A stretch of 64,000 nucleotides of DNA. Source: Isoptericola cucumis (GTDB lineage Bacteria; Actinomycetota; Actinomycetes; Actinomycetales; Cellulomonadaceae). Location: NCBI RefSeq assembly GCF_014635665.1, contig NZ_BMDG01000011.1:1-64000 (forward strand), given 5' to 3'. Shown here piece by piece: positions 142 through 19,423 of this stretch. A program made the position numbers and the translations under genes. Numbering within the stretch: position 1 is the first letter of the stretch; each line of letters begins with the position of its first letter. The notes under the pieces were generated by a model. That model was not told where the DNA came from. It made no database searches and saw only the letters and a list, made by a program, of their open reading frames with translations.

Positions 142-239
142 GTAGGACGAGGATCGACCAATCAAGGCTGCAAACTGACAAAAGAAGTGCCGGTCGCCAG
201 AGTAGGTTGCATCCCCTTCGCCGAGCCCATCGACGGTCG

Positions 240-1748
240 CTAAACACCGAGCTGGTCTGACGGCCTGAGGGCTCCGCAATAGCGACGGGCGCGAGTCAAC
301 GCCACGTAGAGCACGCAGTGTTCCTGTTCGAGCGGACGCAGTCCCTGCGAGAGGATTCCCTCTTCCGCTGCAGTGAGCGCGACGCCCACGCGATCCCACT
401 CGCACCCCTTGGCTTGATGAACCGTCAGTCCCGGAATCAAGGCGTCACGTCCCAACCGCGTGCGGAGTCGGTCGATGTCAGCGGCACGTTCGCGTTCGTT
501 CGCTTCGCCCAGCCTGCTCGGGCGTCGGCCGGCGCCAACTTCGAGCGCAACTGTGCGGAGCAACTCCAGCACGTCGTGTGCATCGGCTCCTTCCCTGAGC
601 GTTGACAGCACAGGGAGAAGGAACTCCTGCTTCGTTTGCTCCGCCATCTCGGGGTCGACCCGCAAGACCGTGTACGCCGCCTGCTTCCCGAACGACGGTC
701 GTCCCAAATTGGCTTTGGTGACTTCGTCGAGGAGGAGGTTTAGCATCGCGTCTGTTGCGTTCTGAACGGTCCGAAACGCGAGGGGCAGGACGTTGTCCCC
801 GACGGTCCACAGCCGGGCCCAGTGGCGCCCGATAGCCACGTCGACGAGACCGCTTGTCGTTGTTGGAACCTGGACCCCTTGGCCGTCCCGTAGTGCGGAG
901 GCGAGACCCGGCATCTGGTCGCCCGTGAAGCGGAATGACTCCGGCTGCTCGTATGCCGCGAACGGGAAGGCGTCGAGCACGAGGGCGACCTTCTCGGGTG
1001 TGGCGCCGCGCCACTCGTAGAGCGCCTGCCACGGATCGCCCACCAGGGTGACGTCGAGGCCCTCTTCCGCTGCGAGGCAGGCGACTGATAGGTCGAGCCG
1101 GTCAGCGTCGTAGACCTCGTCGATCACCATTGCCGAGAACGAAGCGGCAAGCCAGGACTTGAGTTCATCTTTCACGCCGTCGAGTGCGAGGGCTTCGAGG
1201 AGGATGTGCCGTACGTCTTCGTGGCTGACCCGTCCAGCCTCGAGTACGGCGCGGTGGTCTGCCGCGGAGCCGATCCCTGACTGTGGCTTCCCAATGCGGG
1301 TCGACTTGCTGGTGACGAGTCCTGACGCGTCCAGTGCAGCGTGTCGCCGGTAGCTTCCTGCGAGCAGCCACCGGTAGCCCTTGACTCCTTGGTAGGTGTC
1401 AAGGACCTCGAGTTCGACCAACCCTCCGGGCCACTTGAGCATGCGCTTCCGTAGCAGGTGGTGAAGGGCTCTGACGTGGAGGTCGTCGAATGTCGTTATG
1501 AGGCTCGGCAGGGCACCCGCGCGCGAACCCCATCGCCCGATGATGCGCTGTCGCAGTTCCCCGACGGCCGATCGCGTGAAGCTCAGGGCTAGTACGCCCC
1601 GTTGCCGATCAACTCGCGCGTGTCGCAGGTACCCGACGCGTTCGGCAGCAATCGTTGTCTTTCCTGACCCTGGGGCAGAAACAATGTTGACGAGGCGATG
1701 TTCAGAGGCGGCAGCGACGATCTGTCGATCGGTCAGGACAGTTCCCAT
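240..1748 (-). CDS. gajB: UvrD/Rep-like superfamily 1 helicase, GajB-like (Gabija)
   Basis: A 502-residue SF1 helicase. Walker A (SAPGSGKTT) lies near residues 24-32. The Walker B equivalent near 208-214 reads VIDEVYD rather than the usual DEAQD. It is followed by VGDPWQALYEWRGA (about 236-249) and, near the C-terminus, LTVHQAKGCEWD and YVALTRARR, which match helicase motifs V and VI. Known GajB proteins are close to 500 residues and sit directly after gajA, as here: only two bases separate the upstream stop from this ATG. In Gabija, GajB binds the GajA nuclease and is thought to sense DNA ends or nucleotide depletion during phage infection. The assignment rests on motifs, length and gene pairing. 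A lone UvrD paralogue is less likely. Confidence 0.82.
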   Translation of the reverse strand: MGTVLTDRQIVAAASEHRLVNIVSAPGSGKTTIAAERVGYLRHARVDRQRGVLALSFTRSAVGELRQRIIGRWGSRAGALPSLITTFDDLHVRALHHLLRKRMLKWPGGLVELEVLDTYQGVKGYRWLLAGSYRRHAALDASGLVTSKSTRIGKPQSGIGSAADHRAVLEAGRVSHEDVRHILLEALALDGVKDELKSWLAASFSAMVIDEVYDADRLDLSVACLAAEEGLDVTLVGDPWQALYEWRGATPEKVALVLDAFPFAAYEQPESFRFTGDQMPGLASALRDGQGVQVPTTTSGLVDVAIGRHWARLWTVGDNVLPLAFRTVQNATDAMLNLLLDEVTKANLGRPSFGKQAAYTVLRVDPEMAEQTKQEFLLPVLSTLREGADAHDVLELLRTVALEVGAGRRPSRLGEANERERAADIDRLRTRLGRDALIPGLTVHQAKGCEWDRVGVALTAAEEGILSQGLRPLEQEHCVLYVALTRARRYCGALRPSDQLGV

Positions 1749-1750
1749 CG

Positions 1751-5440: not shown

Positions 5441-5674
5441 CTACTCGTCGAACCAGTGCGCAGCCGTTGCCAGTTCGAGCAGCGGCCTCGTCCTCTTCGC
5501 CAGGCGCACTGTCAGAAGGTCACTGGCCATCTGCACGATGTCAGGCGGCCATCGGTGCGGCTCTTGCAGGACGCTTCGTGCAAGGGAGAAGGACATGGCC
5601 GCCATGTAGGACTCGTTAACCCACTCGCCGGGCGGCAAGCAACTCCGCGAGTCCTGGAATACCTCAACCTTCAC
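5441..5674 (-). CDS. Small hypothetical protein overlapping the whiB-like gene end
   Basis: A 77-codon frame starting at GTG 5674 that overlaps the end of the WhiB-like gene by 11 bases, the kind of overlap common in this island. The peptide is amphipathic with a predicted helical centre (MAAMSFSLARS) and an acidic, aromatic end (HWFDE). I recognise no domain. A longer frame in the same register runs upstream through the WhiB gene, but its extra part looks like a shadow, so I use the short start. Start and reality are both uncertain because no clear ribosome-binding site can be seen. Confidence 0.35.
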   Translation of the reverse strand: MKVEVFQDSRSCLPPGEWVNESYMAAMSFSLARSVLQEPHRWPPDIVQMASDLLTVRLAKRTRPLLELATAAHWFDE

Positions 5675-6038
5675 CTTCCGCGTACCCGGCGCCCTCCGCA
5701 ACCGCCTGGACGACGGCGTCGATGAAGTCCGTCCTGGTGAACTCGGGTGGGTACAGCGGAGCCGGCGACAGGGCGTGAGTCTTACGGCGGGCGCTGCGGA
5801 AGTCGTCTCGCTGTCGGGCGGTGAGGCCAGCACGCATCTCGACGGCGATGACGTCGCGGAGTTCTTCAGTCCGGAGCGCATCGCGCAGGCAGTCGGTCGT
5901 CACCGGGCACTCGGTACAGAGTGCCCGCTGAGCGTGCCGGTCGTCGGCACCCTTGGCAACGAAGTGTGGGTCGTCCGCACACGCCGCGCGCCGATGCCAA
6001 CGCGTCACTCGCCGGCGCGCCCCTGCCGACTCCAGCAA
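5664..6038 (-). CDS. WhiB-like iron-sulfur transcription factor
   Basis: About 124 residues from a TTG at 6038, or 114 from the GTG at 6008. Four cysteines (residues 20, 41, 44 and 50) are spaced C-x20-C-x2-C-x5-C, the [4Fe-4S] ligand pattern of Wbl proteins, in the usual context ACADDP...LCTECPVTTDCL. Wbl proteins are actinobacteria-specific regulators that usually bind sigma factor region 4 or DNA. The normally conserved GVWGG turn after the cluster is degraded here to EMRAGLT, which is unusual. A Pro-rich C-terminal tail replaces the short basic DNA-binding tail. Wbl genes are common on actinobacterial phages and plasmids, which fits the island. It may control the neighbouring defence genes, but that is inference. 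Confidence 0.8.
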   Translation of the reverse strand: MLESAGARRRVTRWHRRAACADDPHFVAKGADDRHAQRALCTECPVTTDCLRDALRTEELRDVIAVEMRAGLTARQRDDFRSARRKTHALSPAPLYPPEFTRTDFIDAVVQAVAEGAGYAEGEG

Positions 6039-6104: not shown

Positions 6105-7412
6105 TCATGTCCCAAGGAGGTCCCGAATCGCCTCGCCGAGCTGATGGTGGCGATGGCTATCGAAGATCGCTCGTGCCGGCGCGGTCGTGCGTGCAATGCG
6201 GTTCAGCAGGGCGGACTGCAGGAGCATCGCGCCGGTGTCGGCGAGCAGGGCGACCTCGTAAGCGTCGTACTGGCCGTTGGGCTCGTGCTTGAGCAGGTTG
6301 TTGGTGTTCCAGAACCGGCGGGACCAGGCCATCGAATCCCCGACGAACTCGGAGAACGGAGCGCCCACTCGCGCCGCTAGGTTGGCAGCGAACTTGCCCT
6401 GGCCCAGGGAACTCTGTGCCCACTGAGCGGATCGGCGGTGGGCCGAGACCCAGTACTCGATGGCGGCCGCGATCTCCATCAAGCGGGTCTCGACGTTCTG
6501 GAGTCCGTATCGGTGTCGTGCCACGAGGGGACCTGTGGCTCGCGGGTGAGCGTCGGTGAGTTCGATCCACCGCCGCAGTCCGGCGAGGCCCCCGATGGTT
6601 CTCAGGTTGAAGCTGGGGGTCTCGGTCATGGATCTCGGGGGTCGTGCCCCGTCGGGGCGTCGCATCAGTCGGGCGGTCCACCACGTCGGACTGTCCATTG
6701 GTGGCTTCTTAGAGTCCATCGTGACCCGCCCACCATCGGCGACCACGAGGCCGTCGTAGGCCAAGCTCACAAGCCCCTGGATCGACTGCAGGGGCGGGAT
6801 CAGGTCGGTCCAGTCTGCTGGGCGCGACGCGCTGATCTTGAACTCAACCGGGGCATAGACAGTGCGGCGGTCCGCTGGGCCGTCTACCTGCCAGTGCGTC
6901 GATAGTTCGAGCCGCCGGCCTCTGCTGAGATCCTCGCTCTGCGGTTCTGCCGCCTGCACGGTAATCGCCAGTGAGTTGAGTCGGCCTTTCTCGTCCTTGG
7001 ACGGCGAAGTGCTGGAGCCGGCAACGCCAGCCCAGCCAGCGATGCCAGGGAAGAACGCGGAGACGTCGAGGAAGCCGTCAGACCGCAGATCCCGCAAGGG
7101 AGCGCCGGACACTACGCCATGCGTTCGGTAAGTGCGCGTCGCGACTCGGTAGCCGCCGTGCGTGGTGGCGAGACGCCCGTGATGCACATCAAGGAACAGC
7201 GCGCCGCCCGCTGAGGTCGCAGCTGCCACTGAGCGAGGGAGGGGATTCTCACGAAAGGGGTCGGCGTGCGGGTCAAGGAGGTCGAGCACGAGCTCTCCGT
7301 CGGCGGACAGGTGCACGTGTCCGGGCATCGCCAGATCGAGGGTGTCGAAGTCTTCGACAGCAGTCCAAAAGTAACCAATCGCGCCACTCACTAGATCGGT
7401 TAGATTCGACAT
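6105..7412 (-). CDS. ApeA-like protein with C-terminal HEPN-type domain (probable anti-phage effector)
   Basis: A 435-residue protein. The N-terminal 280 residues resemble the beta-rich sensor region of ApeA-type proteins, opening with a strand pattern around GYFWTAVED and GHVHLSADGELVLDLL. The C-terminal part (about 310-435) is all helical, with a HEPN-like face around EYWVSAHRRS and the segment RRFWNTNNLLKHEP that could supply the R...H active site of HEPN ribonucleases. In ApeA such proteins abort phage infection by RNA cleavage. The fit to ApeA is by overall layout and the NNLLKHEP-type motif, not by full alignment. The gene stands 67 bases upstream of the whiB-like gene on the same strand, among other defence-like genes. 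Confidence 0.55.
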   Translation of the reverse strand: MSNLTDLVSGAIGYFWTAVEDFDTLDLAMPGHVHLSADGELVLDLLDPHADPFRENPLPRSVAAATSAGGALFLDVHHGRLATTHGGYRVATRTYRTHGVVSGAPLRDLRSDGFLDVSAFFPGIAGWAGVAGSSTSPSKDEKGRLNSLAITVQAAEPQSEDLSRGRRLELSTHWQVDGPADRRTVYAPVEFKISASRPADWTDLIPPLQSIQGLVSLAYDGLVVADGGRVTMDSKKPPMDSPTWWTARLMRRPDGARPPRSMTETPSFNLRTIGGLAGLRRWIELTDAHPRATGPLVARHRYGLQNVETRLMEIAAAIEYWVSAHRRSAQWAQSSLGQGKFAANLAARVGAPFSEFVGDSMAWSRRFWNTNNLLKHEPNGQYDAYEVALLADTGAMLLQSALLNRIARTTAPARAIFDSHRHHQLGEAIRDLLGT

Positions 7413-7524: not shown

Positions 7525-7827
7525 TCACCGCGCCCCAAGCGCGTTCAGTAGATCCCTCAAGGCGAGCGTGAGCTCGTTGTGGGCGTGGATGTAGAAGATG
7601 TCGGTCATGTCGTCCGGCCTCACGTCGTCGAAGGCGGCGAGCAGCCGCGCTGCCAGCTTCATCGCCTCAGGCAGCGTCACGGGTGCGTCGGGTCGTGCCA
7701 CAGTCAGGTGGGCGCCGGTCGGCTGTCCGAGTCGGGTAACGGGTACTTGTCCGCCGCGAAGCCGGTGCTCGTGGATGGCGTCCTGAGCGACACGGCCGAG
7801 GTTGGCGATCTCGATGTAGTTGATCAT
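7525..7827 (-). CDS. Small conserved-looking hypothetical protein
   Basis: A 100-residue acidic protein with a very good ribosome-binding site (GGAGGAG just upstream of ATG 7827). It has no transmembrane segment and no metal motif. The C-terminal half looks helical (AMKLAARLLAAFDDV, LTLALRDLLNALG). I cannot assign a family. It follows the RepA-like gene by 91 bases on the same strand and precedes the ApeA-like gene by 112, so it could belong to either module. Candidate roles are antitoxin-like or accessory partner, but nothing in the sequence decides. Confidence 0.6.
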   Translation of the reverse strand: MINYIEIANLGRVAQDAIHEHRLRGGQVPVTRLGQPTGAHLTVARPDAPVTLPEAMKLAARLLAAFDDVRPDDMTDIFYIHAHNELTLALRDLLNALGAR

Positions 7828-7918: not shown

Positions 7919-8755
7919 TCATCGAAGTCGCCTGAAGTGGAACGTGAGGCCGTCCGCATCCGGGGTGATGGTGACGTCAGGGTGCAGGTGGGAGATGGCG
8001 CGAGCCGCGGCCCGCAGCTGCTCGTGGAAGCGTCGCTCTCGGCTGGAGCGGCTTCCGAAGGTCTCGGTGAACTCGCGGTAGGTGCTGTGCCATCGCAGGT
8101 CGTCGCGTTGTTGACGTTCTCGGCACGACCACAGGTAGAGGTCGGTGCGCAGAGGTGAACTGCCGAGCAGCTTGAGCACGTGCAGGTCCACGGGTACGGG
8201 TGCGCTGGTAATGGAGGTGAAGAAGCCGCTGGACAGCGTGATGGCGATCTCGGTGTCGTCTCCGTTCGCTACCCAGGTGCCGTGCCGTGTCGAGTCGAAG
8301 GTGTAGTGCTCAGCGATGGGGAAGGTCGTCCCCTTGACGGCTGTGCCGTCTGCTCGGGCAGTCGAGTCCTGGATGTGGACGGTCGCGCCAGCGAGACGGG
8401 CGAGCTGGTCAGCGAGTCGGTGCTGGCTGCGGCCGTCGATAGCCTGGCCGATTGCCCGAGCGAACTCGGAACGCGAACTTCCGGCCTTGAGATGACGTGA
8501 TCCGGTCGCGACCGCGGTGGTAGCCATCCAGGCGAGTAGGCGGCGTGGCAGTACTCCGTAGGGAAACAGATCGCCGCCCATGAGGCTGCCCGAAGGCGTG
8601 GGGTCAATGGTGGCGATGCGACCGTCGTGCTGTTGTTGCCATCGGGCGAAAGGGCCGGGGTCTCGGTAGGGGAGCATGAACTCGGCGAATACGGCCGGGT
8701 AGTAGCCCGGGGCGGTGGCCCGTCTGCGGTTGGTCGGGGCGGGTTGAAGGCGCAT
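7919..8755 (-). CDS. RepA-like plasmid replication initiator in the transposition operon
   Basis: A 278-residue protein. The block from LFPYGVLPRRLLAWMATTAV to SRSEFARAIG (about residues 63-100) matches the core motif of RepA proteins of pRO1600-type plasmids, in which initiators bind iterons through winged helices. The following region (NGDDTEIAITLSSGFFTSI) and the C-terminal WHSTYREFTETFGS resemble the second winged helix. Its ATG lies only 12 bases after the stop of the second tniQ gene, so it is almost surely co-transcribed with the Tn7-like genes. It may be a true initiator, meaning the element came from or can exist as a plasmid, or a DNA-binding protein recruited for target choice. I see no obvious iteron array next to it. 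Confidence 0.65.
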   Translation of the reverse strand: MRLQPAPTNRRRATAPGYYPAVFAEFMLPYRDPGPFARWQQQHDGRIATIDPTPSGSLMGGDLFPYGVLPRRLLAWMATTAVATGSRHLKAGSSRSEFARAIGQAIDGRSQHRLADQLARLAGATVHIQDSTARADGTAVKGTTFPIAEHYTFDSTRHGTWVANGDDTEIAITLSSGFFTSITSAPVPVDLHVLKLLGSSPLRTDLYLWSCRERQQRDDLRWHSTYREFTETFGSRSSRERRFHEQLRAAARAISHLHPDVTITPDADGLTFHFRRLR

Positions 8756-8767
8756 GGGGCTCCGGGT

Positions 8768-10426
8768 CTACGTGTTGGTGATCGAGGCGAGGGAAGTCGC
8801 GGCCTGCGGGCTGAGGGCTGCTTCGAACTGTCGATAGGCGGTGCGTGCTGGCCGGTCGGGAGGGTCGGGCCATCCGGGGCTGGTGCTCAGCAGTCCACCT
8901 GCCACGTGGCACCACAGCCAGGTCACTGCGTACGGCAGGGAGGATTTGCGCGTTCCGGGCCGCTGCGCCGAGGACCACGGCAGGAACCAGTCGGGGTGCT
9001 GGGCCTTTTCGTGTACGAGGTCTTCCAGGTGGCAGCGGTCCTCGTGCAAGTCAGAGACGATGCAACGCAGGGCGCGGTCAAGGTCGCGGGCGGCGAGCGG
9101 GTTGCGGGTGCTGATCGCTCGGGCGGTGTTCGTGCCGTGCTGGGGAGGCACGCCGAGGATGTCGGCGGCCGCTGCCCAGGTCAGCGTGGGGTCATGGTGG
9201 CGGACGAGGCACAGTGCGAGGAAGTGTCGGGGCGTTTCGCCTCTGGTGCGGAACAGGTGGGCCGCGTGCCTCTGGTAGACCGGCTCGGGCACTGCTTGTG
9301 GGATCCGGTCGATGTCAACGACGAGGGGGCTCGCTCGTAGGGCGTGGCTGATGCGCTGGTGGGGCGCGAGGGCGGTCATACACAGGCGTGTCAGGGTCGG
9401 TGTCATCCGGGTGCGGTCGGCGAGCCAGCCGAGCCGGGAGTCCGTCGTCGTCGGGGCCGCCATGATCCAGGGATGCAGGGCGGCTGCCGCCTCGTCGAGA
9501 TGCTCGTTGGTGATGATGGCCTCGGCGGTCGCCAGAGCTCGGGATCTTGTCGTCGGCGACGTGGGCGGGTGCACGCTCCATCGCACCGGACCGTGCTGAC
9601 CGATCGGGTGCGACCCTGCGGGACCGCGTTCGGTGGGTGTGGTCTTCCGCCGAGCGCTCTCGGTCAGTAGGTCTTCTCGCCAGCCGGCCAAGCCAGCGCC
9701 ACCTGGGGTTGATGCGAGGGCGAGGAGCAGGACGGTCAGTGCCCACACGTCGAGGAGGTAGCTCGACGGAGTGCACGGAGACCCGAGCACGGCCGGTGCG
9801 GCGCCGCAAAGCGCGATGTCGTGGCGGGTTTGGCGGGTGATGCACGCATCATGGGCACGTTGAGGGTGCAGGGCGCTGAGATCGGCGTCGCAGTGGCCGT
9901 AACCGGGAAGCGGGTTGAGGCAGCGAGTCCCGGGCGCCGGACGCAGAGCGGTGTGGGGGTGGTCGAGAAGGCGGCGCCCGCAAGCTGGGCATTGTTCGAC
10001 CAGATAGCAGCCGTGCCGGGTGCACACGGTCGTGCTGGGCAGCCTCCACTGCAGCTGCCAGAAGCCATCGTCAGCAAGACACTGGGGGCACGCCGCAGAT
10101 CCCGTCGCGCGGATCCATCCGCGAGCCGCGACGCGCCGCCACGTCGACCAATGCTCGGGATCGAGGTCGCGCAGCTCGACAAGTCCGGTGCCGTCGAACC
10201 GCTCGACGGTCGCAGACCGGACAACGGCACCGCTCACGCCAGCGAGCTCGGCAACCCGGGCAACCACGCGGCCGGTGGGCTTGATGCTGAGGAAACGAAG
10301 CGGACCAGCGTCCTGGGTGATCAGGGAGGTCAGCTGGCCCGACGACATCGCATTCAATGCAGCCAAGTGTTCGAGCCAGTCCTGGATGCACTGGCCAGGC
10401 TGCGGGGCCGTGCGTACGGGCAGCAT
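8768..10426 (-). CDS. tniQ: TniQ/TnsD-family target-selection protein (second copy)
   Basis: A 552-residue TniQ-family protein. The N-terminal TniQ domain opens with LPVRTAPQPGQCIQDWLEHLA. It is followed by a zinc-finger array with C113-x2-C116, C135, H138, C140 and C146-x2-C149, the spacing seen in TniQ/TnsD. The long C-terminal part (150-552) is TnsD-like in length and should hold helix-turn-helix DNA-binding segments, for example around LTWAAAADILGVPPQ. In Tn7, TnsD binds the attachment site and recruits TnsC. The start ATG overlaps the upstream tniQ stop by one base. Being the longer TnsD-like copy, it is the better candidate for recognising a fixed chromosomal site. Confidence 0.85.
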   Translation of the reverse strand: MLPVRTAPQPGQCIQDWLEHLAALNAMSSGQLTSLITQDAGPLRFLSIKPTGRVVARVAELAGVSGAVVRSATVERFDGTGLVELRDLDPEHWSTWRRVAARGWIRATGSAACPQCLADDGFWQLQWRLPSTTVCTRHGCYLVEQCPACGRRLLDHPHTALRPAPGTRCLNPLPGYGHCDADLSALHPQRAHDACITRQTRHDIALCGAAPAVLGSPCTPSSYLLDVWALTVLLLALASTPGGAGLAGWREDLLTESARRKTTPTERGPAGSHPIGQHGPVRWSVHPPTSPTTRSRALATAEAIITNEHLDEAAAALHPWIMAAPTTTDSRLGWLADRTRMTPTLTRLCMTALAPHQRISHALRASPLVVDIDRIPQAVPEPVYQRHAAHLFRTRGETPRHFLALCLVRHHDPTLTWAAAADILGVPPQHGTNTARAISTRNPLAARDLDRALRCIVSDLHEDRCHLEDLVHEKAQHPDWFLPWSSAQRPGTRKSSLPYAVTWLWCHVAGGLLSTSPGWPDPPDRPARTAYRQFEAALSPQAATSLASITNT

Positions 10427-11910
10427 CAGGCGCTCCGGTCTTGAGCGGGGACTGCGGGCGACGGAACGTTCACCGCGGGCGGGTCGACGGCGTGAAGGTG
10501 CTCATCGACGGCGTCCAGCAGCTGGAGGCGCTGCTCGGGGTTGAGGGCTTCGTCGAGCACGCGGACGTCGGCCAGCGTGACCTCGTTGGCCGGACCGGGC
10601 GTCAGGTGCAGCCTGCACCAGGCGGCCAGGACGACGTCGCTTGCGGGCGGCAGGTTGGGGACCTTGCGACGCAGACTCGTGAGCAGTCCCGTGGGGGTGG
10701 CGAATCGTTGCCGTAGGTCGTGGTGGTCGACGAGACCCTGTCCGATCAGGTGTTCGGCGGTACGCGCCACGTGCGCTGCCCGCATCGCGTCGATGCCGGC
10801 GTCTTGGAGCGCCCGGTGTCGACGGCTCCGTGTCAGAAGACCGAGGTCGCGCCGCGCGCGAGCCTCGGCGCCGGGGTCGTGCCATCGTCCGGACAGCAGG
10901 ATGTGCAGGATGACGGCGCGGCGCTCCAGCTCTCGGCGATAGTCGCGGGTCGGTACGAGGGCGTCGGCTTCCTCGACGGGCCAGGCTGGGAGGTGTCGAG
11001 CTTGGATGCCGGAGGTGCGTTGCAGGCGCTGGATGGTCTTGATCAGGGACGCAAGTACGGGTTGCGTTCGTGAGCTCGGGACGTTGGGCAAGGCTGGGCG
11101 CGCAGCCCAAGGCACTCCGGCGTTGTGCCGGCGCACGAGTGCTCTGGCTGCGTCGCTGTGGTGTCCGTCGAGTCGCTCGACCGCTTCTCCTTGCAGCTGG
11201 CGTTGGCGCTGTGGATCAGCCAGTGCTCTGGCGCATTCGAGGACGACGATCGCGGCGTCGCTCGGCGTGGCTGGCGGGCGTCGACTCCAGTCAGTGCGAG
11301 GTTGCGGCAGCTGCGTCCGCAGGTCATGCTCCCAGGCGGGAAGTTTCGGCCACTGCGTGTCGGACGACGCGGCGACGATCTCGCACAGCAGGTAGAGGTT
11401 TGCGAAGCGGCGCTGAACGCTGCCAGAGCGGAGGCGGTCGGGTTCGAGGTCCTGGGCGATCAGAGCCTGCGCCTGCCGGGCTGCCGTGTCTGGCGCCCCG
11501 ATCTCCGGCATGCCGTGGGCGTCGGCGCCGCTTGTCGAAAGCAGGGAGGGGCACTGCAGGCACAAAGGGTGTAGTGCGAGGTGCCAGCGTCGTAGCACTG
11601 CTCCACCTCGCCAGGTGCACCGAGGGCATCTCCAGGGATACCGGCCGTGTATCCAGGTGCGCTGCGTCCGCCCCGTTTCTCCGATCAGTACTGGCGGGTA
11701 GGTCGACAGCGTCAGGGCCGTCACCTGCTCGGGAGGTAGGTCCAGTAGTTCGGCCAGGCGAGCGGCGGCTCGGTGTTCGGATCGCAAGCCTCCCGTCGTG
11801 GGTAGACCGAGTTGATGAGGGTGCAGGCCGTTGCTGGCGGCGACCCGGGTCGTCAGGGACGAGATCGTCTCGTCGTGCTCGGGCGCCGGGCGTACGGGTA
11901 GCGCTGTCAT
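10426..11910 (-). CDS. tniQ: TniQ-family target-selection protein (first copy)
   Basis: A 494-residue TniQ-family protein. The N-terminal domain reads ALPVRPAPEHDETISSLTTRVA, the usual TniQ opening of a short PxR motif and then a helix. A shortened zinc finger follows, with C95-x2-C98 and C117-x2-C120 around a histidine-rich loop (RRWHLALHPLC). The rest is helical with many Arg residues (LARRHN, RRELERRAVIL), as expected for a DNA-binding tail. The ATG overlaps the tnsC stop by four bases. Elements with two TniQ proteins usually use them for two target pathways, for instance a fixed chromosomal site and mobile plasmids. Which is which here is inference. Confidence 0.82.
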   Translation of the reverse strand: MTALPVRPAPEHDETISSLTTRVAASNGLHPHQLGLPTTGGLRSEHRAAARLAELLDLPPEQVTALTLSTYPPVLIGETGRTQRTWIHGRYPWRCPRCTWRGGAVLRRWHLALHPLCLQCPSLLSTSGADAHGMPEIGAPDTAARQAQALIAQDLEPDRLRSGSVQRRFANLYLLCEIVAASSDTQWPKLPAWEHDLRTQLPQPRTDWSRRPPATPSDAAIVVLECARALADPQRQRQLQGEAVERLDGHHSDAARALVRRHNAGVPWAARPALPNVPSSRTQPVLASLIKTIQRLQRTSGIQARHLPAWPVEEADALVPTRDYRRELERRAVILHILLSGRWHDPGAEARARRDLGLLTRSRRHRALQDAGIDAMRAAHVARTAEHLIGQGLVDHHDLRQRFATPTGLLTSLRRKVPNLPPASDVVLAAWCRLHLTPGPANEVTLADVRVLDEALNPEQRLQLLDAVDEHLHAVDPPAVNVPSPAVPAQDRSA

Positions 11911-12983
11911 GGGGCGTGCACCTCCACGCTCGCTGCCTGCGCGGCGCGGGTTGTGACAGGTTGGCGCAGGCGGGGTGCGGCGGCCTGTGCCCGTCGGGAC
12001 AGCTGGGAGCGTTCCAGGTCGGCGGTGCGTATGGTCCAGGTGTCTTCTTGCGCGGCGATGTATGCGGCGTCGGCGATGAGCCGGGCGACGTCGCCGAGGT
12101 ATCCCTGGGTGAGTCTCCAGACGCGTGGCGCATGGTGCCCGGCCAGAATCCCTGGCATGGCCGTCGGGAGATAGGGCAGGACGAGTCTCTCGACGCCGGC
12201 GAGGGTGGATTGCCAGGTCGCGACCTCGACGGGAGTGTCGATGGTGCAGGCCTTCAGGCTGATCGTGCGTAGCCGTCCTGCCATCTGGGGGTCGTGGAAG
12301 ATCGCGCCGTCCTCGAGGTTGGCGCCCACCAGGACCATCGTCGCTCCGCGCTGTCCGAGCATGGTGTTGACGTGCTTGAGGTGATCAAGGACGTCGCGGG
12401 CGTCCTGGTGCCGGAGGTTGAGCAGATTGGTGTCGTCGACGACGAGCAGCCGCACCCGGTGGGCGTCGAGAATGCGGTGGATTCGCGCGGTCAGGTCGTG
12501 AATCGCTCCGCTGATCGGGTAGCCGAAGTACTGCAGCAGCTGGATGTTGAAGGCACGCACCTTCGACGCCGCCCCGAGGTCGAGCCAGACCACGGGGATT
12601 TCGTCGGCGACGATGCCGACCTCTCGATGCCAGGTTGGCATCTGGCTGTGGTGGAGACGGTCTCCGATGATCTGGCGGTACTGATCTTGCGCCCAGGTGC
12701 GCACCAGCGTGGACTTGCCGACGGCGAACGGAGCGCTCACGGCGATGACGTCTTTGGCGGCCGGTGTGCTGACGGCGTTGTCCTCGACGAGGTCGGTCAA
12801 GGTCGTACGCGCCTGGACGATGGCCGGTGTCTCGAAGCGGAGGCTGCGCATCCATCGTCGGCGGTGTTGGAGGTACCTCGTGCGGCTGCTGTCGCTCATG
12901 GCGCGCAGCTGCGTGATCGCCTTGACCGGCGGAGCGATGAGCGGTTTCGCTCGGGCCTGGTCGTGCCACAGGCGTGCGGTCAT
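11907..12983 (-). CDS. tnsC: TnsC/TniB-like AAA+ transposition ATPase
   Basis: A 358-residue AAA+ ATPase from the ATG at 12983, which overlaps the tnsB stop by one base; a longer frame runs back into tnsB and is less likely. Walker A is SAPFAVGKST and Walker B is RLLVVDDTNLL. The nearby stretch HQDARDVLDHLKHVN and the sensor VGANLEDGAIF fit the TniB/TnsC family. In Tn7-like systems this protein polymerises on DNA at the site marked by TniQ and activates the TnsAB transposase, giving target immunity. The N-terminal 80 residues are basic (RYLQHRRRWMRSLRFETP), as in TniB proteins. Confidence 0.9.
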   Translation of the reverse strand: MTARLWHDQARAKPLIAPPVKAITQLRAMSDSSRTRYLQHRRRWMRSLRFETPAIVQARTTLTDLVEDNAVSTPAAKDVIAVSAPFAVGKSTLVRTWAQDQYRQIIGDRLHHSQMPTWHREVGIVADEIPVVWLDLGAASKVRAFNIQLLQYFGYPISGAIHDLTARIHRILDAHRVRLLVVDDTNLLNLRHQDARDVLDHLKHVNTMLGQRGATMVLVGANLEDGAIFHDPQMAGRLRTISLKACTIDTPVEVATWQSTLAGVERLVLPYLPTAMPGILAGHHAPRVWRLTQGYLGDVARLIADAAYIAAQEDTWTIRTADLERSQLSRRAQAAAPRLRQPVTTRAAQAASVEVHAP

Positions 12984-15193
12984 CAGTCCTCGCCCTCCCG
13001 TACTTCCGGCGTGTAGGGCCAGGACTCTGCCCACATCGAGTAGGACTCGGTGGCACGGGCGACGGTCGGTGCGTTGACCGCGGCATGCGGTGTCGTGATC
13101 TCGGCGACCGCGCGCGCGATCTCCGCTTCGGCATGGTCACGGCGCGCGGCCTCATGGCGGAGCGTGGCCGCGGAGAGCCGCTTCTTCCAGTCTCGGGGGA
13201 CGGTCGCGAGCAGACTGCCGAGCTCGGTGATGATCTCGTCCTCTACGGAGGCCTGGGACAGGCGTATGCCCGACTTCCGACGCAGGACCGTGCCGCGGAT
13301 GTGCTGGACGAGTGTCGCGGTCATCGGGGCATCGACCAGGTGGGCCTTGCGCCAAGGCACCTCGACGATGCGGTCGGTGTCCGGGTGCCGGAACCACACG
13401 CGACTGACGTCGTGCGGGTCGTAGTGGAAGGGCATGGCACGGTCCTCGGCGCGAAACGTGCCCTTCGGGACCGAGCGCAGCCCTTCCAGCTCTGGGCTGT
13501 CGTAGGTCAGGTTCGACAACTCAACCCCGGACTGGCCCACTGTGGCCCATCGGACCGGCAGGAAGTCGTAGAGCAGGTCTGGCCGTTGGGGAACGTGTAG
13601 TCGTCCGGTGATCTTGAGCAGCGCGTCGAACATGTCGATGGGCCGCATGTCGATGCGTTCAGTCCCGGGCAGTTGCAGGCCCTGGTGCGGGGTGCGGTGG
13701 TAGTCCAGGACGATCCAGCGGCGCAGGAACTTCTCCAGCTCGGGCCCTGTGAGCAAGGCCGTCGCGTCAGAGTCACCCGTTCCCACGGTCCGACCCCGTT
13801 GGGCGACGTTTCGGCCCTTGTAGCCTGGAAGCTGTTGCAGGCCCCGCTGCAGGGTCTCGTGATAGCGCTCGAGGATGCCGTTGTCGAGAGGCCGGCGCGT
13901 GCGCGACAGGGGTAGGTCGATGCCGAAGCGGTCCAACAGGTCTCGGAAGACCTGCGAGACGAAGATCGAACCGTGGTCTGCACGAACTGACATCGGTCGA
14001 ACGCCGGGCACCACGTGCTCGCCCTGCATGCCGGGCGCGGTTCGCAGCGATCGGCAGGTGCGCGGACAGGTCACCTCCACACCCGAGCAGTCCGGATCCG
14101 CCTCCGGGTCGTCCGGGAAGAACTCGATCCGCTCCGGCACTCCCGCCCATGCCCAGTCGGACACCTCGGTACCCGCCACGACTTGGGAGAACGGTCGGAG
14201 CACGTCGTACATCAGCAGTGACGCATCGTGCGAGTCCGCACTCATCGGGACCACGCGCAGCGCCAGGATCATGCGTGTGGCCAGGTCCATCGCGGAGATG
14301 ATCTCGACCGAGCAGGCGCCGCCACGCACCGGGCACCAGACCATGACGTCGGAACGTGTGACGTCGATCGCCACGACCTGCCCGGGAACCATCGCCGCAT
14401 ACGACTGGGTCCCGGATACCCCTCTGAGCTTGTTGGAACGTTGAGCACGGGTCGTGACACCACGAACTCTCATCAGATGCGCGACGAACCGTCCCGAAGC
14501 TCGCTGCGGCGCCGCGATGTCGTGACCCGCCTCGTGCAGGCGCACCTTGATACGCCGGTGCACTTCCCGCAGGTTCACAGTTGACGCGTCACCGTCGAAC
14601 TCACTCACGACCTCCTGCGCCGCCTGGCGCCAGACCAGCGGGATCGTCGAGAACACCTCGGTCGAGCGGGACCGACGTTGATCCACCAGGCCGAGCAATC
14701 CTCCCTCGCGCGCGGCCCTCACCCAGTTCTGCACTGTCCTGATTCCGATGGTGCCGAGGTCCCGGCCCCCGGCACGGTCCGTGGATGACTCGTGTCGCAG
14801 CAGCTTGGCCATCCGCTCGCATCGGGCCGTCAGGCTGACACCCGATGCCGGATCGAAGGTGCTGTTGGGCTCTCCATCGAGGGCCAGGTCGGCATGACCA
14901 CGACGAAACCCGGTGACGATCTCCTGGACGACACCAAGCCGGAAGAGCGCCTCACTGCGCACGTCCTCGCCGAGTCGTACCCACTGCCCAGCGAAGCTCA
15001 GCAACGCCGGCTCCTCGAGTCCCCCGGCGTCCAGCGGTTGCATCATCGTCACGTCAGGCCAGGACACCCATTCGACCCGCCCGTGGATGTCGCGTAGCTC
15101 GATGCCCTGCACGTCGACATGGACCACAAGGGCCGTTCCGTCCTCCGTCAGGACCGTGTCGCCGACTTGGAGAACGATCCTGTTCACCTTCAT
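12983..15193 (-). CDS. tnsB: TnsB/TniA-like DDE transposase
   Basis: A 736-residue DDE transposase of the Mu/Tn7/TniA superfamily, starting at the ATG at 15193 that overlaps the tnsA stop by four bases. An N-terminal helix-turn-helix lies near residues 147-165 (TIGIRTVQNWVRAAREGG). The rve-type catalytic core has D277 (VVAIDVT), D406 (VRADHGSIF) and E442 (NGILERYHETL), all three acids being present. The Mu-type beta-barrel and a basic C-terminal tail that would contact TnsC follow. It binds repeats in the element ends and performs 3-prime strand cleavage and joining. A Cys pair near 369-380 (DCSGVEVTCPRTC) inside the core is not typical and may be a small zinc knuckle. Confidence 0.93.
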   Translation of the reverse strand: MKVNRIVLQVGDTVLTEDGTALVVHVDVQGIELRDIHGRVEWVSWPDVTMMQPLDAGGLEEPALLSFAGQWVRLGEDVRSEALFRLGVVQEIVTGFRRGHADLALDGEPNSTFDPASGVSLTARCERMAKLLRHESSTDRAGGRDLGTIGIRTVQNWVRAAREGGLLGLVDQRRSRSTEVFSTIPLVWRQAAQEVVSEFDGDASTVNLREVHRRIKVRLHEAGHDIAAPQRASGRFVAHLMRVRGVTTRAQRSNKLRGVSGTQSYAAMVPGQVVAIDVTRSDVMVWCPVRGGACSVEIISAMDLATRMILALRVVPMSADSHDASLLMYDVLRPFSQVVAGTEVSDWAWAGVPERIEFFPDDPEADPDCSGVEVTCPRTCRSLRTAPGMQGEHVVPGVRPMSVRADHGSIFVSQVFRDLLDRFGIDLPLSRTRRPLDNGILERYHETLQRGLQQLPGYKGRNVAQRGRTVGTGDSDATALLTGPELEKFLRRWIVLDYHRTPHQGLQLPGTERIDMRPIDMFDALLKITGRLHVPQRPDLLYDFLPVRWATVGQSGVELSNLTYDSPELEGLRSVPKGTFRAEDRAMPFHYDPHDVSRVWFRHPDTDRIVEVPWRKAHLVDAPMTATLVQHIRGTVLRRKSGIRLSQASVEDEIITELGSLLATVPRDWKKRLSAATLRHEAARRDHAEAEIARAVAEITTPHAAVNAPTVARATESYSMWAESWPYTPEVREGED

Positions 15194-15960
15194 CGCCCCG
15201 CTCCAGCGAGCCGCACGACGCTGTCCGCGGTGATGCGGGCATCGAGGTCGACGACAAGCTCTGACGTCCACAGCAGATGCCACATCAGCGCGATCGTGTG
15301 CCCGTCACCGGAATCGAGCTGCAACAGCTCTGCGACTGTCGCGCGCTTCCGACACGCCGCCTCCAACCGCAACCGAGCGCCATGGTGTGGCCAGGACGGC
15401 TCCTGACGGAAGGACGCCAGCCACAGCATGTTCAACCGTCGCGCGTCGTGGGCCGTGTCGTACAAGGAGTACTCCCAGCCGACTTCGGTGCAGGCCTGTT
15501 CGGTCAGGCGGGCCTTGTGCAGGAACTTCTCGTCCCTGCGTTCGGACGGCCTGGCGTCCCAGACCACGATCCGGCCGTCGTCGTGTTCACACGCGACGTC
15601 GGGAACGTGCCGGGCTCCGTCAACGAATGTCATGAGGGCCGGCTGCGCGACGATCCACACCACGCCAGGGTCGCGATCGAGCTCACGCGCCAGCTCGTAC
15701 TCCAACCCGGATTCCAGGATCAGTCGAGTTCCCGTGGTCTGACAGTGTGCCTGGACCGGCGCATGGCGCGACATGGAGTCCGCCACCGGTCGACGGACTG
15801 GTGTCAGATCTCGAAGAATCGGTGCACCAGCCTTCCAGTCCCACTCAAAGTCCTGACCTGCAAGATCTCGTACACGCCAAGAGACACACGTTTCAGGTGC
15901 AGGGCTGCTCCAGTTGACGGACACAGTGTTTGAGGCGCATTCTGGACGTGCTGAAGACAT
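15190..15960 (-). CDS. tnsA: TnsA-like heteromeric transposase endonuclease subunit
   Basis: A 256-residue frame. The core reads LILESGLEYELARELDRDPGV, then AQPALMTF, then HVPDVACEHDDGRIVVWDARP, the E...PD...(D/E/Q)xK-like layout of TnsA endonucleases that cut the 5-prime ends. The usual final lysine is replaced by Arg (VWDAR), so catalysis should be tested. The N-terminal block GQDFEWDWKAGAPILRDLTPVRRP resembles the opening of actinobacterial TnsA-like proteins, so I keep the start near 15960; an internal ATG lies at 15774. It is the first gene of the operon and stands nearest the likely right end. Having TnsA points to cut-and-paste rather than copy-in movement. Confidence 0.78.
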   Translation of the reverse strand: MSSARPECASNTVSVNWSSPAPETCVSWRVRDLAGQDFEWDWKAGAPILRDLTPVRRPVADSMSRHAPVQAHCQTTGTRLILESGLEYELARELDRDPGVVWIVAQPALMTFVDGARHVPDVACEHDDGRIVVWDARPSERRDEKFLHKARLTEQACTEVGWEYSLYDTAHDARRLNMLWLASFRQEPSWPHHGARLRLEAACRKRATVAELLQLDSGDGHTIALMWHLLWTSELVVDLDARITADSVVRLAGAGR

Positions 15961-16032
15961 AGGAGTACCCCCAAGTGAGCGGCGGGTGTTTCTTTCCAGC
16001 GGACCGACAACGTCCGCGGTAGCGAGGCGACC

Positions 16033-16060
16033 GGGTCCGAGAGCTGCAACTCTCGGGCCC
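16033..16060. terminator. Hairpin between the RHH gene and tnsA
   Basis: An 11-bp stem (16033-16043 with 16050-16060, one G-U pair) closes a six-base loop. A T-containing tail follows on the plus side. It lies after the stop of the RHH gene and before tnsA, so it may separate the two transcripts or moderate tns expression. Confidence 0.5.
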
Positions 16061-16094
16061 GTTTCGCGTCCTCGGCGTCCTACGCCGATCGACG

Positions 16095-16331
16095 TCAGAC
16101 CATGCGGTCACCGTCCTCGGCGGCGAATCCCCGCCGGAGCACGTCGGCCATGACGACTCGGACGGGACGGCCCAACTCTCGGGAAGTTCGATAGATCCGC
16201 TCAGCGAGCGAGGCCGGGATCTGCGTATCGATGCGCACCGCATCATCGGGGCAGTGCTCACGCAAGCGCGTTGGGGGACGACCGGTACGCGCGGACGGGA
16301 TCACGATCGGACCCTTCGTCTGCTGAGACAT
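16095..16331 (-). CDS. Small ribbon-helix-helix-like DNA-binding protein
   Basis: A 78-residue protein from ATG 16331, preceded by a purine-rich GGGAGGG region. A disordered basic N-terminus leads to a ribbon-helix-helix-like core: strand VRIDTQIPASLAERI, helix YRTSRELGRPVRV, helix VMADVLRRGFAAE. Such proteins are antitoxins or plasmid and transposon repressors. No toxin-like gene sits beside it. It lies between tnsA and the presumed element end, with three short direct repeats just upstream, so a repressor of itself or of transposition is plausible. Family placement is by pattern only. Confidence 0.6.
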   Translation of the reverse strand: MSQQTKGPIVIPSARTGRPPTRLREHCPDDAVRIDTQIPASLAERIYRTSRELGRPVRVVMADVLRRGFAAEDGDRMV

Positions 16332-16632
16332 CCCTGCTCACCCTCCCCGACTCACCACCAATGGACCCAGCGGGATCGGGTGGTAAGTCCGAGGCCAGTC
16401 TCAGGCGGTCAGTCCGAGACCACGCGGTGCAAGCAGCGCGTAGACACCCGATTGCTGAACCGGGTATCCGAAACCAGTATGGCGGCCACCACCTGGCATC
16501 TCAAGGGGTCACGCGGACCAGTCATCCGGGCGGCGAGGAAATTAAGGAATGCTTCATCGCCCTAGTAGCACCACTTAAGCAACCTACCTGTAAGATTCGG
16601 CAATCTTGGCTGCACGTCGACAATGAGGCGAG
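16332..16632. other. Non-coding right-end region between the RHH gene and dnaB stop
   Basis: About 300 bases without a gene and visibly richer in A and T than the flanks. It holds three direct repeats (see 16382-16475), a 26-bp block at 16571-16596 that recurs in altered form at 15841-15866, and an inverted repeat at 16592-16607 (6-bp arms, 4-base loop) that could end dnaB transcription. Read on the minus strand from 16622 the sequence begins TGTCGAC, matching the TGT...ACA ends of Tn7-like elements, 11 bases from the dnaB stop. I take 16622 as the most likely right end, without proof. Confidence 0.45.
16382..16475. repeat. Three short direct repeats upstream of the RHH gene
   Basis: Copies at 16382-16396 (GGTAAGTCCGAGGCC), 16407-16421 (GGTCAGTCCGAGACC) and 16462-16475 (GGGTATCCGAAACC). 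The first two differ at two of fifteen positions and are 25 bases apart. They lie 50 to 145 bases before the start of the RHH gene, within its promoter region, and suggest operator sites for that protein or transposase-binding sites. Confidence 0.5.
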
Positions 16633-19284
16633 TCAGACCTGCATGTCGACGAACCGCGAGTAGTGGCCCTGGAACGCAACGACGATGGTGTCGGTGGGGC
16701 CGTTACGGTGCTTGGCGACGATCAGGTCGGCCTCGCCGGCGCGTGGGGACTCCTTCTCGTAGGCGTCCTCGCGGTGCAGCAGGATCACCATGTCGGCGTC
16801 CTGTTCGATGCTGTTGTGGACGGCGATTCCATTCGCGATGAAGTTGTGCGTGTCAAGAACGGTGGCGTCGAAGACTTGCTTTTCGCCCACCGACTCGATC
16901 GCGACCACCTCGTCCCACAGCAAGTCGTTGACCGCCATGATCTCGAGCTCTTCGCTCTCGAGCACCTGGGCGATCTTGCCGAGGCGCTGGCGAGACGGGC
17001 TGTGCTTCCACAGGGTGCTGCCGCAGAACTGTGTCCCGAGCGCCGCCGCGAACTGGCGATGGGTCATGTCACGCTCGACGAGCAGTTCACGGACGTCGTC
17101 CCACACCTGGCGGGGAATCGTGTCGACGTTCGTGTTCGCCTGCGTGTCGCGAATGATCTGCAGCAGCTGGTCGGCGTTGCCACCACGGTCCCCGTGCACG
17201 CCGATCTCCTGAAGGAAGCGGCGCTGGTCGTCCACCCCTGAGATGTCCAGCGTGTATCCCTGTCGGTGCGCGCCCTTGAGAGTGGCGCGGCGGATCCGAG
17301 TCGAAATACCGAACCGGAGAAGCAAGCGCGAGAGCCCGTCGACGAGCGCGCGTGATGTTGACGCGTAGTAGATCCGCCCGCCCCGGCCGTTCTTGTGGAC
17401 GGTCACAGAGCCGTCGGTCGCCCAGATGTGCTTGATGAAGAGTGCGATCTGACCCTTCGGCAGGTGGAAGACACTCGTCGGTATGAACTTCTCATGACTC
17501 CTGGCGCCGAAGAGGCCCAGGTCGTCGAGCCATTCCGCGATCGGGTTCCGCTTGCCGTGAGTCAGCTGGAACGGAGCGGGAAGGCGGAGCGTGGTCACAC
17601 GCGCGGCTGCATAGTCGTCACGTACCGGAGTGATGCCGAAGGCTCCTGCCGCGTCGGCCACCGCAGTCAGGTTCCGCTCGTCGACTGACGCGTATCGGAT
17701 CGGCTGGCGCTTCACGAACGACCCGTCACCGATCAGGTGGGCGAGCATCACGACCTTGCGGTCGTCCCACTCAGCGTTCTGCTCCGGTCCGGGCACGTGG
17801 CGGGGTACGCCGAGGCGGGAGCCGACCTCCAACTCTCCGAGCGGTCGCCATCCCTCGTACGTGAGGAACGGGTGGTTGGCGGTGGCTTCGATCTCCTTGC
17901 CCGACGACAGCCGCAGCTTGTAGACGGGCTTCACTCCGGTCGGGAAGACGTGCGTCAGGTGACGGCGCACGTACTGGAGCCGGTCGTTCAGCGCCCACAC
18001 CGGGACGTCCTTGGCGTTGAGCGCGAAGAGCTCGCCCATCGTGGTCTCCGCACCGGTGTCCGCGCGCAGGATGCGGGTGTCCTCCGTGAGGCACCCCGAC
18101 TCACGCAGATCGGACATCGCGGGCTTCTTGTCCTGGCGCTGCTCGGGGCCTCGGTTCAGCTGCGAGAGCGCGATGACCGGGACCTCGATCTCCTTCGCGA
18201 GGAGCTTGAGGGCACGTGAGAACTCGGAGACCTCCTGCTGCCGCGACTCGACCTTCTTGCCGGACGTCATGAGCTGCAGGTAGTCGATGACGACGAGCTT
18301 GAGGTCGTGCTTCTGCTTGAGCCGGCGGCACTTGGCGCGGATCTCGGTGAGCGACATGTTGGGCGAGTCGTCGACGAACATCGGCGCCTCGGAGATCTTG
18401 CCCATCACCTTGGCGAGCTTCTGCCAGTCGTCCTCGCCCATGGAGCCGTTGCGCAGCTTCTGCAGGTGCACGCGCGCCTCGGCGGACAGCAGACGCATGG
18501 TGATCTCGTTGCGGCTCATCTCCAGCGAGAAGACCACCGACGTCTGGCCGTTCTTGATCGACGCCGACCGCGCGATGTCAATGGCAAGCGTCGACTTGCC
18601 CATGGCCGGTCGGGCGGCGATGACGATCATCTGGCCGGGGTGCAGGCCGTTGGTGAGGCGGTCGAGGTCGGCGAAGCCGGTGGGGACGCCGGTCATCCCC
18701 TCGCCGCGGTGCCCGGCGGCCTCGATCTCGTCCATGGTGCCGCCGATGATCTCGGCGAGCGGCAGGTAGTCCTCGCTGGTCTTGCGCTCCGTGACGGCGT
18801 AGATCTCGGACTGGGCGGTGTTGACGATGCCCTCGACGTCGCCGCCGTCGGTGGCGTACCCGAGCTGCACGATCTTGGTGCCGGCCTGCACGAGGCGGCG
18901 CAGCACGGCGCGCTCCTGCACGATGCGGGCGTAGTAGCCGGCGTTGGCGGCGGTGGGGACGCCGGCCATGAGGTCGTGGAGGTAGGGGGCGCCGCCGACG
19001 CGAGTCAGCTCGCCGCGCTTGGTCAGCTCGCCGACGACAGTGATGGCGTCGGCGGGCTCGCCGCGCCCGTACAGGTCGATGATGGCGTCGTAGATGGCCT
19101 CGTGGGCCGGGCGGTAGAAGTCGTTGCCGCGGATCTGCTCGACGACGTCGGCGATGGCGTCCTTGGAGAGCAGCATTCCGCCGAGCACGCTCATCTCGGC
19201 GGCGATGTCCTGAGGAGGAGTGCGGTCGAACCCGGCGCCTGACGACGACCCCGCGTAACCCGCCTCGAGCTCCTCGATCGACAT
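16633..19284 (-). CDS. dnaB: Replicative DNA helicase DnaB, intein-containing precursor
   Basis: An 883-residue precursor from ATG 19284 (a GTG lies at 19290). The extein is about 456 residues: an N-terminal DnaB domain starting at PPQDIAAEMSVLGGML, Walker A ARPAMGKST, Walker B VVIDYLQLM, and the C-terminal DADMVILLHREDAY and QGHYSRFV segments. DnaB is the hexameric fork helicase. A 427-residue intein splits it between DLRESG and SIEQDAD, the conserved site also used by cyanobacterial DnaB inteins, so splicing is needed for function. In most relatives dnaB directly follows rplI. Here about 7 kb of other genes intervene and a Tn7-like element starts just past its stop. A group of DnaA-box-like sites lies upstream. 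Confidence 0.97.
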   Translation of the reverse strand: MSIEELEAGYAGSSSGAGFDRTPPQDIAAEMSVLGGMLLSKDAIADVVEQIRGNDFYRPAHEAIYDAIIDLYGRGEPADAITVVGELTKRGELTRVGGAPYLHDLMAGVPTAANAGYYARIVQERAVLRRLVQAGTKIVQLGYATDGGDVEGIVNTAQSEIYAVTERKTSEDYLPLAEIIGGTMDEIEAAGHRGEGMTGVPTGFADLDRLTNGLHPGQMIVIAARPAMGKSTLAIDIARSASIKNGQTSVVFSLEMSRNEITMRLLSAEARVHLQKLRNGSMGEDDWQKLAKVMGKISEAPMFVDDSPNMSLTEIRAKCRRLKQKHDLKLVVIDYLQLMTSGKKVESRQQEVSEFSRALKLLAKEIEVPVIALSQLNRGPEQRQDKKPAMSDLRESGCLTEDTRILRADTGAETTMGELFALNAKDVPVWALNDRLQYVRRHLTHVFPTGVKPVYKLRLSSGKEIEATANHPFLTYEGWRPLGELEVGSRLGVPRHVPGPEQNAEWDDRKVVMLAHLIGDGSFVKRQPIRYASVDERNLTAVADAAGAFGITPVRDDYAAARVTTLRLPAPFQLTHGKRNPIAEWLDDLGLFGARSHEKFIPTSVFHLPKGQIALFIKHIWATDGSVTVHKNGRGGRIYYASTSRALVDGLSRLLLRFGISTRIRRATLKGAHRQGYTLDISGVDDQRRFLQEIGVHGDRGGNADQLLQIIRDTQANTNVDTIPRQVWDDVRELLVERDMTHRQFAAALGTQFCGSTLWKHSPSRQRLGKIAQVLESEELEIMAVNDLLWDEVVAIESVGEKQVFDATVLDTHNFIANGIAVHNSIEQDADMVILLHREDAYEKESPRAGEADLIVAKHRNGPTDTIVVAFQGHYSRFVDMQV
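16813..18093 (-). other. DnaB intein with LAGLIDADG homing endonuclease
   Basis: The intein runs from Cys (codon at 18091-18093) to the terminal Asn (16813-16815), followed by Ser as the plus-one nucleophile. Block A is CLTEDTRILRADTG, block B has TANHPF with the conserved TxxH, and blocks F and G are HNFIANGIAVHN. The centre keeps two DOD endonuclease motifs, LAHLIGDGSF and IKHIWATDGSV, each with its acidic residue, so the homing nuclease may be active. Codon use is less G/C-rich than the extein, which fits horizontal arrival. Confidence 0.95.
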
Positions 19285-19423
19285 GCCCACCTCGCTCCCC
19301 CGGCGCTGCCGGCACTCGGGCCCGACGTTCGGACCGTCCCCCGCTGTCAGGACCTCGTTCTACTCTGAGGCACCGACACCGGGCCTGACGCTAGGCTCGC
19401 CAGCCACCGTCCGCAACGAGCGT

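Follow-up and report, generated by a model that had tools for sequence, protein, structure and literature searches.

A RepA-like initiator gene directly after the second tniQ gene of a Tn7-like transposon at dnaB in Isoptericola cucumis

Tn7 carries tnsE after tnsD. In the accessible part of a survey of Tn7-like elements (Faure et al., 2023, PMC10293859), such elements are described as borrowing DNA-binding systems for the choice of targets, namely CRISPR effectors, TnsE and TnsF, and a small TniQ is given as a hallmark of those with an additional target selector. The same source describes dual TniQ/TnsD transposons, which combine tnsA-tnsB-tnsC with two tniQ genes, TGT ends, a 5-bp target duplication and a fixed chromosomal site. 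Here we analyzed a Tn7-like transposon that shares these features, in a 64,000-nucleotide stretch of the actinobacterium Isoptericola cucumis (the window; positions 1 to 64,000 of contig NZ_BMDG01000011.1, hereafter C11). In contrast to the dual-TniQ elements in that part of the survey, it lies at the 3' end of dnaB, both of its TniQ proteins are long, and its second tniQ gene is followed by a gene for a RepA-like replication initiator. Among the titles and abstract openings listed in literature searches, none reported a Rep initiator within an operon of the Tn7 type or a dnaB attachment site for such elements, although supplementary tables may hide cases; the main texts of PMC10293859 and PMC8649781, in their accessible parts, do not mention DnaB, nor RepA beyond words such as 'repair'.

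No origin of replication was found with the gene and the related elements examined lack it; thus, RepA probably does not signal a plasmid stage but is more likely a DNA-binding protein that was captured and put to a new use. We estimate a probability of about 0.5 that the initiator was captured, became uncoupled from replication and has been kept as an accessory DNA-binding protein. Its capture and function are what we infer from the observed gene positions, predicted fold, family, nearest relatives and absences of iterons and of repA in relatives.

A predicted replication initiator as the sixth gene of the operon

The genes that define a Tn7-like element, tnsA, tnsB, tnsC and tniQ, all lie in one operon on the reverse strand of the window. 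It begins with tnsA, encoding an endonuclease (15190-15960; NCBIfam TnsA_like_Actin, E = 5.1e-34, above the cut-off), and continues with tnsB for a DDE transposase (about 12983-15193; Mu-transpos_C, 8.5e-6), tnsC for a TniB-type AAA+ ATPase (about 11907-12983; Pfam TniB, 4.8e-13), tniQ1 (10426-11910; 494 aa; Pfam TniQ, 4.6e-10) and tniQ2 (8768-10426; Pfam TniQ, 1.1e-17), the product of which is long, with a TnsD-like size of 552 aa. The sixth gene, repA (7919-8755), encodes a RepA-like protein of 278 aa (Pfam RepA_C, 5.8e-12, and RPA, 8.4e-8). As read from the sequence, tnsA and tnsB overlap by 4 bases at an ATGA junction and tnsB and tnsC by 1 base at TGATG, and the tnsC/tniQ1 and tniQ1/tniQ2 junctions are ATGA and TGATG, respectively. 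The starts of tnsB and tnsC were placed at their ATGA and TGATG junctions, and a GTG start listed for tnsB at 15283 is an upstream extension. Thus, the six-gene order and coordinates proposed in an earlier reading of the same DNA (the original prediction), with overlaps of 1-4 bases and an intact 278-codon repA 12 bases further on, held up. The 12-base gap between tniQ2 and repA carries a Shine-Dalgarno-like GGAG ahead of the repA ATG, and we infer that repA is co-expressed with the transposition genes.

RepA scored 46.7 bits against Pfam RepA_C (curated cut-off 26); neither NCBIfam nor PHROGs assigned it a family, and a search of solved structures by its sequence gave no match. An AF2 model built from a 14-row alignment had a pTM of 0.81 and a mean pLDDT of 79.6. 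With this model Foldseek gave 41 matches in the PDB with E <= 0.001, each to RctB, Rep or RepE54 as far as can be told from titles, some of which end before the protein name. The best match was to RctB domains 2-3 (TM 0.60), and among the 50 PDB matches listed the first 42 were to RctB, Rep or a RepE54 co-crystal, while the others were weak (E >= 0.29) and unrelated. The predicted fold of RepA is a double winged-helix initiator fold, which agrees with the naming of the 278-residue protein as an initiator in the original prediction; a model without such a fold, which that prediction had listed as evidence against itself, was not obtained. Since family and fold both match, the pairing of tniQ2 with repA and the identity of the latter as an initiator gene are real.

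In a 26-row tree, RepA fell into one group, at a support of 100/99, with seven RepA sequences of Micrococcales, six from plasmids and one from a genome (G039). It formed the longest end branch of the tree (2.58; next 1.33, median 0.69), a length that leaves its exact placement unsure. In a leave-one-out comparison over a 13-row alignment, RepA retained 42 of 63 conserved columns (67%) compared to 82-97% for each of 12 relatives; these rows were picked among the best matches of RepA, and any bias would be in its favour. RepA is related by family, and through its predicted double winged-helix fold, to the initiators of R388 (IncW) and of Micrococcales plasmids, to which it is up to 36% identical, but it differs from them in that many conserved residues are changed, that at both ends it is shorter than in most relatives, and that no iterons were found with it. 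When three plasmid or genome repA genes were drifted at random to 36% identity, the frame stayed free of stop codons in 1 of 200 runs for each gene, and at 65% identity in 3 to 5 of 200. The repA frame in the window is intact, an outcome that is rare under neutral drift, and thus does not have the appearance of a long-drifting pseudogene.

Ends of the element and the search for an origin

The ends of the element begin with TGT, are inverted and are flanked by a 5-bp target duplication, ATGAG. The right end, TGTCGACGTGCAGCCAAGATTG (16601-16622, reverse strand), begins at 16622, 10 bases past the stop codon of an intein-containing dnaB (16633-19290, reverse strand; Pfam DnaB_C, 9.2e-103; Intein_splicing, 2.4e-23), the 3' end of which is the attachment site. 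One copy of ATGAG lies at 16623-16627 and the other ahead of the left end, which a pattern search of the host genome located on another contig (C12:168664) with one mismatch to the left end of the related element of Promicromonospora soli; the right end itself was the sole other match. C11 and C12 both terminate in insertion-sequence-like ends, flanked on both contigs by CGCAACAG. In the window, the insertion-sequence end that breaks the contig, which we take to be of ISL3 type, spans 1-65, and the 8-bp CGCAACAG lies at 66-73 and is present also at the tail of C12. This suggests that one insertion-sequence copy joins C11 and C12, in which case the element would extend from C12:168664 through the insertion sequence, of unread length, to position 16622 of the window.

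One explanation offered by the original prediction was that the element passes through a plasmid stage in which it replicates itself; this would be initiated by RepA. Whereas the family and fold of RepA are those of an initiator, the remaining evidence speaks against self-replication. As a measure of iterons we used the most copies of a 12-mer, with one mismatch allowed, inside 1 kb. No iterons were found in the sequenced parts of the element, which reach to the unread insertion-sequence joint on either side: the maximum was 2 copies in the C11 part, including the surroundings of repA, and 3 in the C12 part, and an exact 9-mer scan agreed with this result. In contrast, 4-9 copies were present in 11 of 12 comparison loci, which comprised one genome locus and 11 plasmid repA loci fetched out of 802 matching records; the locus lacking an iteron-like run was that of Cnuibacter (2 copies), and the repeat run of Micrococcus, ~1.6 kb from repA and with 9-base phasing, may not be iterons. 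Of the 11 plasmid loci that were fetched, 7 have a ParA gene close to repA; the open reading frames (ORFs) of the element that were scanned with Pfam gave no ParA match. Thus, the absence of iterons from the sequenced parts and the site-specific chromosomal insertion with its 5-bp duplication disfavour a plasmid stage, which we rejected on the former ground, and with the loss of conserved residues from RepA we regard self-replication as highly improbable.

Related elements and the gene after tniQ2

TnsB matches besides the host were found in 3 of 394 genomes of the class (E <= 1e-90), in 5 of 396 genomes of the order (E <= 1e-60) and at 2 named loci. With the Gordonia plasmid pGKT2 included, and with Paraoerskovia marina and G040 counted once, there are 9 distinct related elements. 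Among plasmid records, 126 had a TnsB match (E <= 1e-20) and 100 a TniQ2 match, and pGKT2 alone was opened. The window TnsB is 64-65% identical to those of P. soli and P. marina. The P. soli element (L008/L107), of about 27.3 kb, occupies the same dnaB site, has both ends with a 5-bp duplication (CCGAC at each), and shares TnsB (65%), TniQ2 (49%) and a 100-aa gene, h100, with the window element; it differs in that whiB replaces repA, and its genome has no RepA match. The pGKT2 element (L003) has related TnsABC and two TniQ proteins (TnsB up to 49%, TniQ2 33%), but it is plasmid-borne, an IS3 splits its tnsB region, helicase cargo follows tniQ2, and there is no RepA in the 29.6 kb fetched.

A tniQ2 gene is visible in 8 of the 9 elements, namely those of pGKT2, P. 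soli, G390 (L010/L113), G143 (L011), G388 (L012), G683 (L114), G780 (L115) and G675 (L116); in G143 the tniQ2-like gene lies on the strand opposite tnsC, and the P. marina element ends at a contig end shortly after tnsB. RepA was absent near tniQ2 from all 8 (tblastn of the fetched stretches, E <= 1e-4 or <= 1e-3), and at E <= 0.01 from the whole genomes of P. soli, P. marina, G390, G143 and G388 (0 of 5), while for G683, G780 and G675 the absence refers to the fetched stretch. In P. soli, tniQ2 is followed by whiB and then by h100, each with a 4-base overlap. In the window, repA follows after 12 bases and h100 (7525-7827, reverse strand; 70% identity to the P. soli gene; no Pfam and no plasmid match) after a further 91, and these gaps flanking repA suggest a later swap for whiB. 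The gene after tniQ2 is a SnoaL-like gene in G390 and a 101-aa ORF without assignment in G388, both with a 4-base overlap, a NOV_C or helicase gene after 162 bases in G675 and pGKT2, and an ORF without assignment after 179-196 bases in G683 and G780; G143 has no gene near. Thus, the slot after tniQ2 is variable across relatives.

RepA matches were rare near the host, with 2 of 98 relatives (E <= 1e-3), 7 of 396 genomes of the order (1e-6) and 2 of 394 of the class (1e-8), the host included in each count. They were frequent on plasmids (802 of 72,556 records), every one at <60% identity. Phages gave one weak match among 50,697 records, and single-sequence queries of viral contigs returned no close relative of RepA or TniQ2. 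A TniQ profile built from 7 sequences recovered tniQ in 5 related elements but gave no match at E <= 0.01 near any of 31 other RepA loci: 9 genome loci (weak or broken RepA matches among them), 13 viral-contig loci and 9 plasmid loci with flanks of only 1.5-2.5 kb. The tniQ-repA adjacency, for which the original prediction had suggested a search of other genomes, was thus met with neither in related elements nor at RepA loci, and repA unlinked to tns genes, which it had named as evidence against itself, is what both show.

These results raise the possibility that repA is a passenger. It would then be the foremost of the cargo genes, picked up by accident and without a role in transposition, perhaps acting otherwise in the cell or being lost. 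In favour of a passenger are the differing genes after tniQ2 (whiB, SnoaL-like, NOV_C/helicase, unassigned ORFs), the absence of repA from the 8 related elements, the longest branch and greatest loss of conserved columns of RepA, and the length of both TniQ proteins. However, repA lies only 12 bases from tniQ2 with a ribosome-site-like GGAG of its own, its frame and predicted fold are intact despite heavy divergence, and it precedes h100, a gene common to P. soli. We consider chance capture the main rival to an accessory role, possible but the less probable of the two.

Several of these observations also weigh against an accessory role for RepA: its absence near tniQ2 in relatives, the absence of TniQ from other RepA loci, and the length of both TniQ proteins (494 and 552 aa). 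Furthermore, the arrangement is present in one element only, with no sign of repA being retained beside tniQ2 over time. RepA could have diverged before its capture, on a plasmid, and fast divergence fits loosened constraint equally well as a new role. The GC content at third codon positions (GC3) of repA (0.777) falls inside the ranges of both the tns genes (0.73-0.83) and the cargo (0.70-0.82), and so leaves its affiliation undecided. Recruitment of repA is thus a possibility: an intact frame together with strong divergence is what a change of role would predict, yet the gene is unique among the elements examined.

Possible roles of RepA, cargo and the dnaB site

If RepA is a captured accessory protein, a Tn7-like transposon at the 3' end of dnaB would have acquired repA directly after tniQ2, most likely from a Micrococcales plasmid and, as far as sequenced, without an iteron origin. 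RepA would have kept its double winged-helix DNA-binding fold while altering many residues conserved in plasmid RepA, and would most likely be co-produced with the transposition proteins and assist them by binding specific DNA sequences, its gene occupying the slot that holds whiB in P. soli and tnsE in Tn7. As a first guess it may engage plasmid DNA for target choice, and as a second it may regulate the operon.

As a target selector, RepA would bind plasmid iterons or replicating origins and, via a TniQ, steer insertion into plasmids, a TnsE-like job. The position of repA after tniQ2 resembles that of tnsE after tnsD in Tn7, the matched PDB entries belong to a fold class that binds iteron DNA, and one related element lies on a plasmid, pGKT2. 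Recruited selectors have precedents in TnsE and TnsF, each, like RepA, a non-TniQ protein encoded with tniQ; this is a working analogy only, as by the description in the accessible part of PMC10293859 their folds are unlike that of RepA, and TnsF is common across its family whereas RepA occurs in one element. Moreover, the pGKT2 element lacks RepA, and neither TniQ is short, although extra selectors go with a small TniQ according to the same source. Of the traits of a selector, adjacency to tniQ was seen (12-base gap), while conservation with tniQ (0 of 8 elements, 0 of 31 RepA loci) and a small TniQ partner were not. Target selection by RepA is thus a tentative suggestion, and its narrower form, in which an origin-less initiator binds incoming iteron-type origins and passes them to TniQ2-TnsC, is a little more doubtful still.

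Alternatively, RepA may repress or activate the tns operon in place of WhiB, a member of a transcription factor family and the sixth gene product in P. soli. Plasmid initiators often regulate their own genes. The site looked at in detail was an inverted repeat (15+15 nt) at 16032-16061, ahead of tnsA, which we rejected as a RepA operator because P. soli has a counterpart without having RepA; it is therefore not specific to RepA. Regulation by RepA is similarly tentative, and we regard it and target selection as about equally open; both refine, and overlap with, the reading of RepA as an accessory protein.

The element carries anti-phage genes. A Gabija pair occupies 240-3658 (reverse strand; GajB 240-1748, PADLOC 2.1e-36; GajA 1751-3658, 1.1e-53), and a PD-T7-1 gene lies directly inside the left end (L111:8842-10224; PADLOC 2.9e-162). 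Further cargo encodes a WhiB-type regulator (5664-6038, reverse strand; Pfam Whib, 1.6e-8) and a protein with an ApeA N-terminal domain (6105-7412, reverse strand; Pfam ApeA_NTD1, 6.6e-21; no PADLOC match). Between the right end and tnsA is a 78-aa ORF (16095-16331, reverse strand) without a Pfam match, to which P. soli DNA is similar; the region between right end and tnsA has a similar counterpart in P. soli that contains part of it twice. Scans of the window for tRNA genes and Rfam families gave no match. The host genome holds a second, distant TniQ/TnsB pair on contig C8 (L027:8411-10793).

The right end lies directly after dnaB in the window and in P. soli, with 5 mismatches in G390 and, as judged by eye, in P. 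marina; the left end and duplication were located in the window's host and P. soli only. Inside the element, a right-end-like motif pointing left lies at 159-180 (reverse strand) and ~190-216. We rejected the motif at 180-159 as the left end because of its wrong orientation, the true left end being on C12; it may be what is left of an earlier insertion at that site. The search pattern gave two exact matches, with 0.18 expected at one mismatch, a figure that flatters the motif, as the pattern was drawn up after both sites had been seen. The right-end motif was also observed directly after dnaB in three genomes of the same genus, G009, G003 and G007 (L104:231, L105:19867 and L106:209), none of which has a TnsB match (E <= 1e-10); we read these motifs as signs of elements next to dnaB that have decayed or lack tns genes. 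On L105 there is a left-end-like motif at 17228 with a mismatched flank. A second left-end-like motif (L107:19148-19169, 4 mismatches) lies 2 kb past the left end of the P. soli element and suggests repeated insertions at dnaB. The dnaB intein is of the LAGLIDADG type, and by our reading dnaB is interrupted, at varying positions, in 7 of 10 stretches from the same genus (L056-L065).

If RepA does select targets, a transposon parked at dnaB and carrying anti-phage genes would gain a second route onto plasmids, with RepA as a stand-in for TnsE. A borrowed replication initiator would, if true, constitute a new class of target-choosing system and tie the spread of transposons to the replication of plasmids. 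Even with repA as a passenger, the locus records an exchange of genes between plasmids and transposons together with a dnaB attachment site, of which we found no earlier description.

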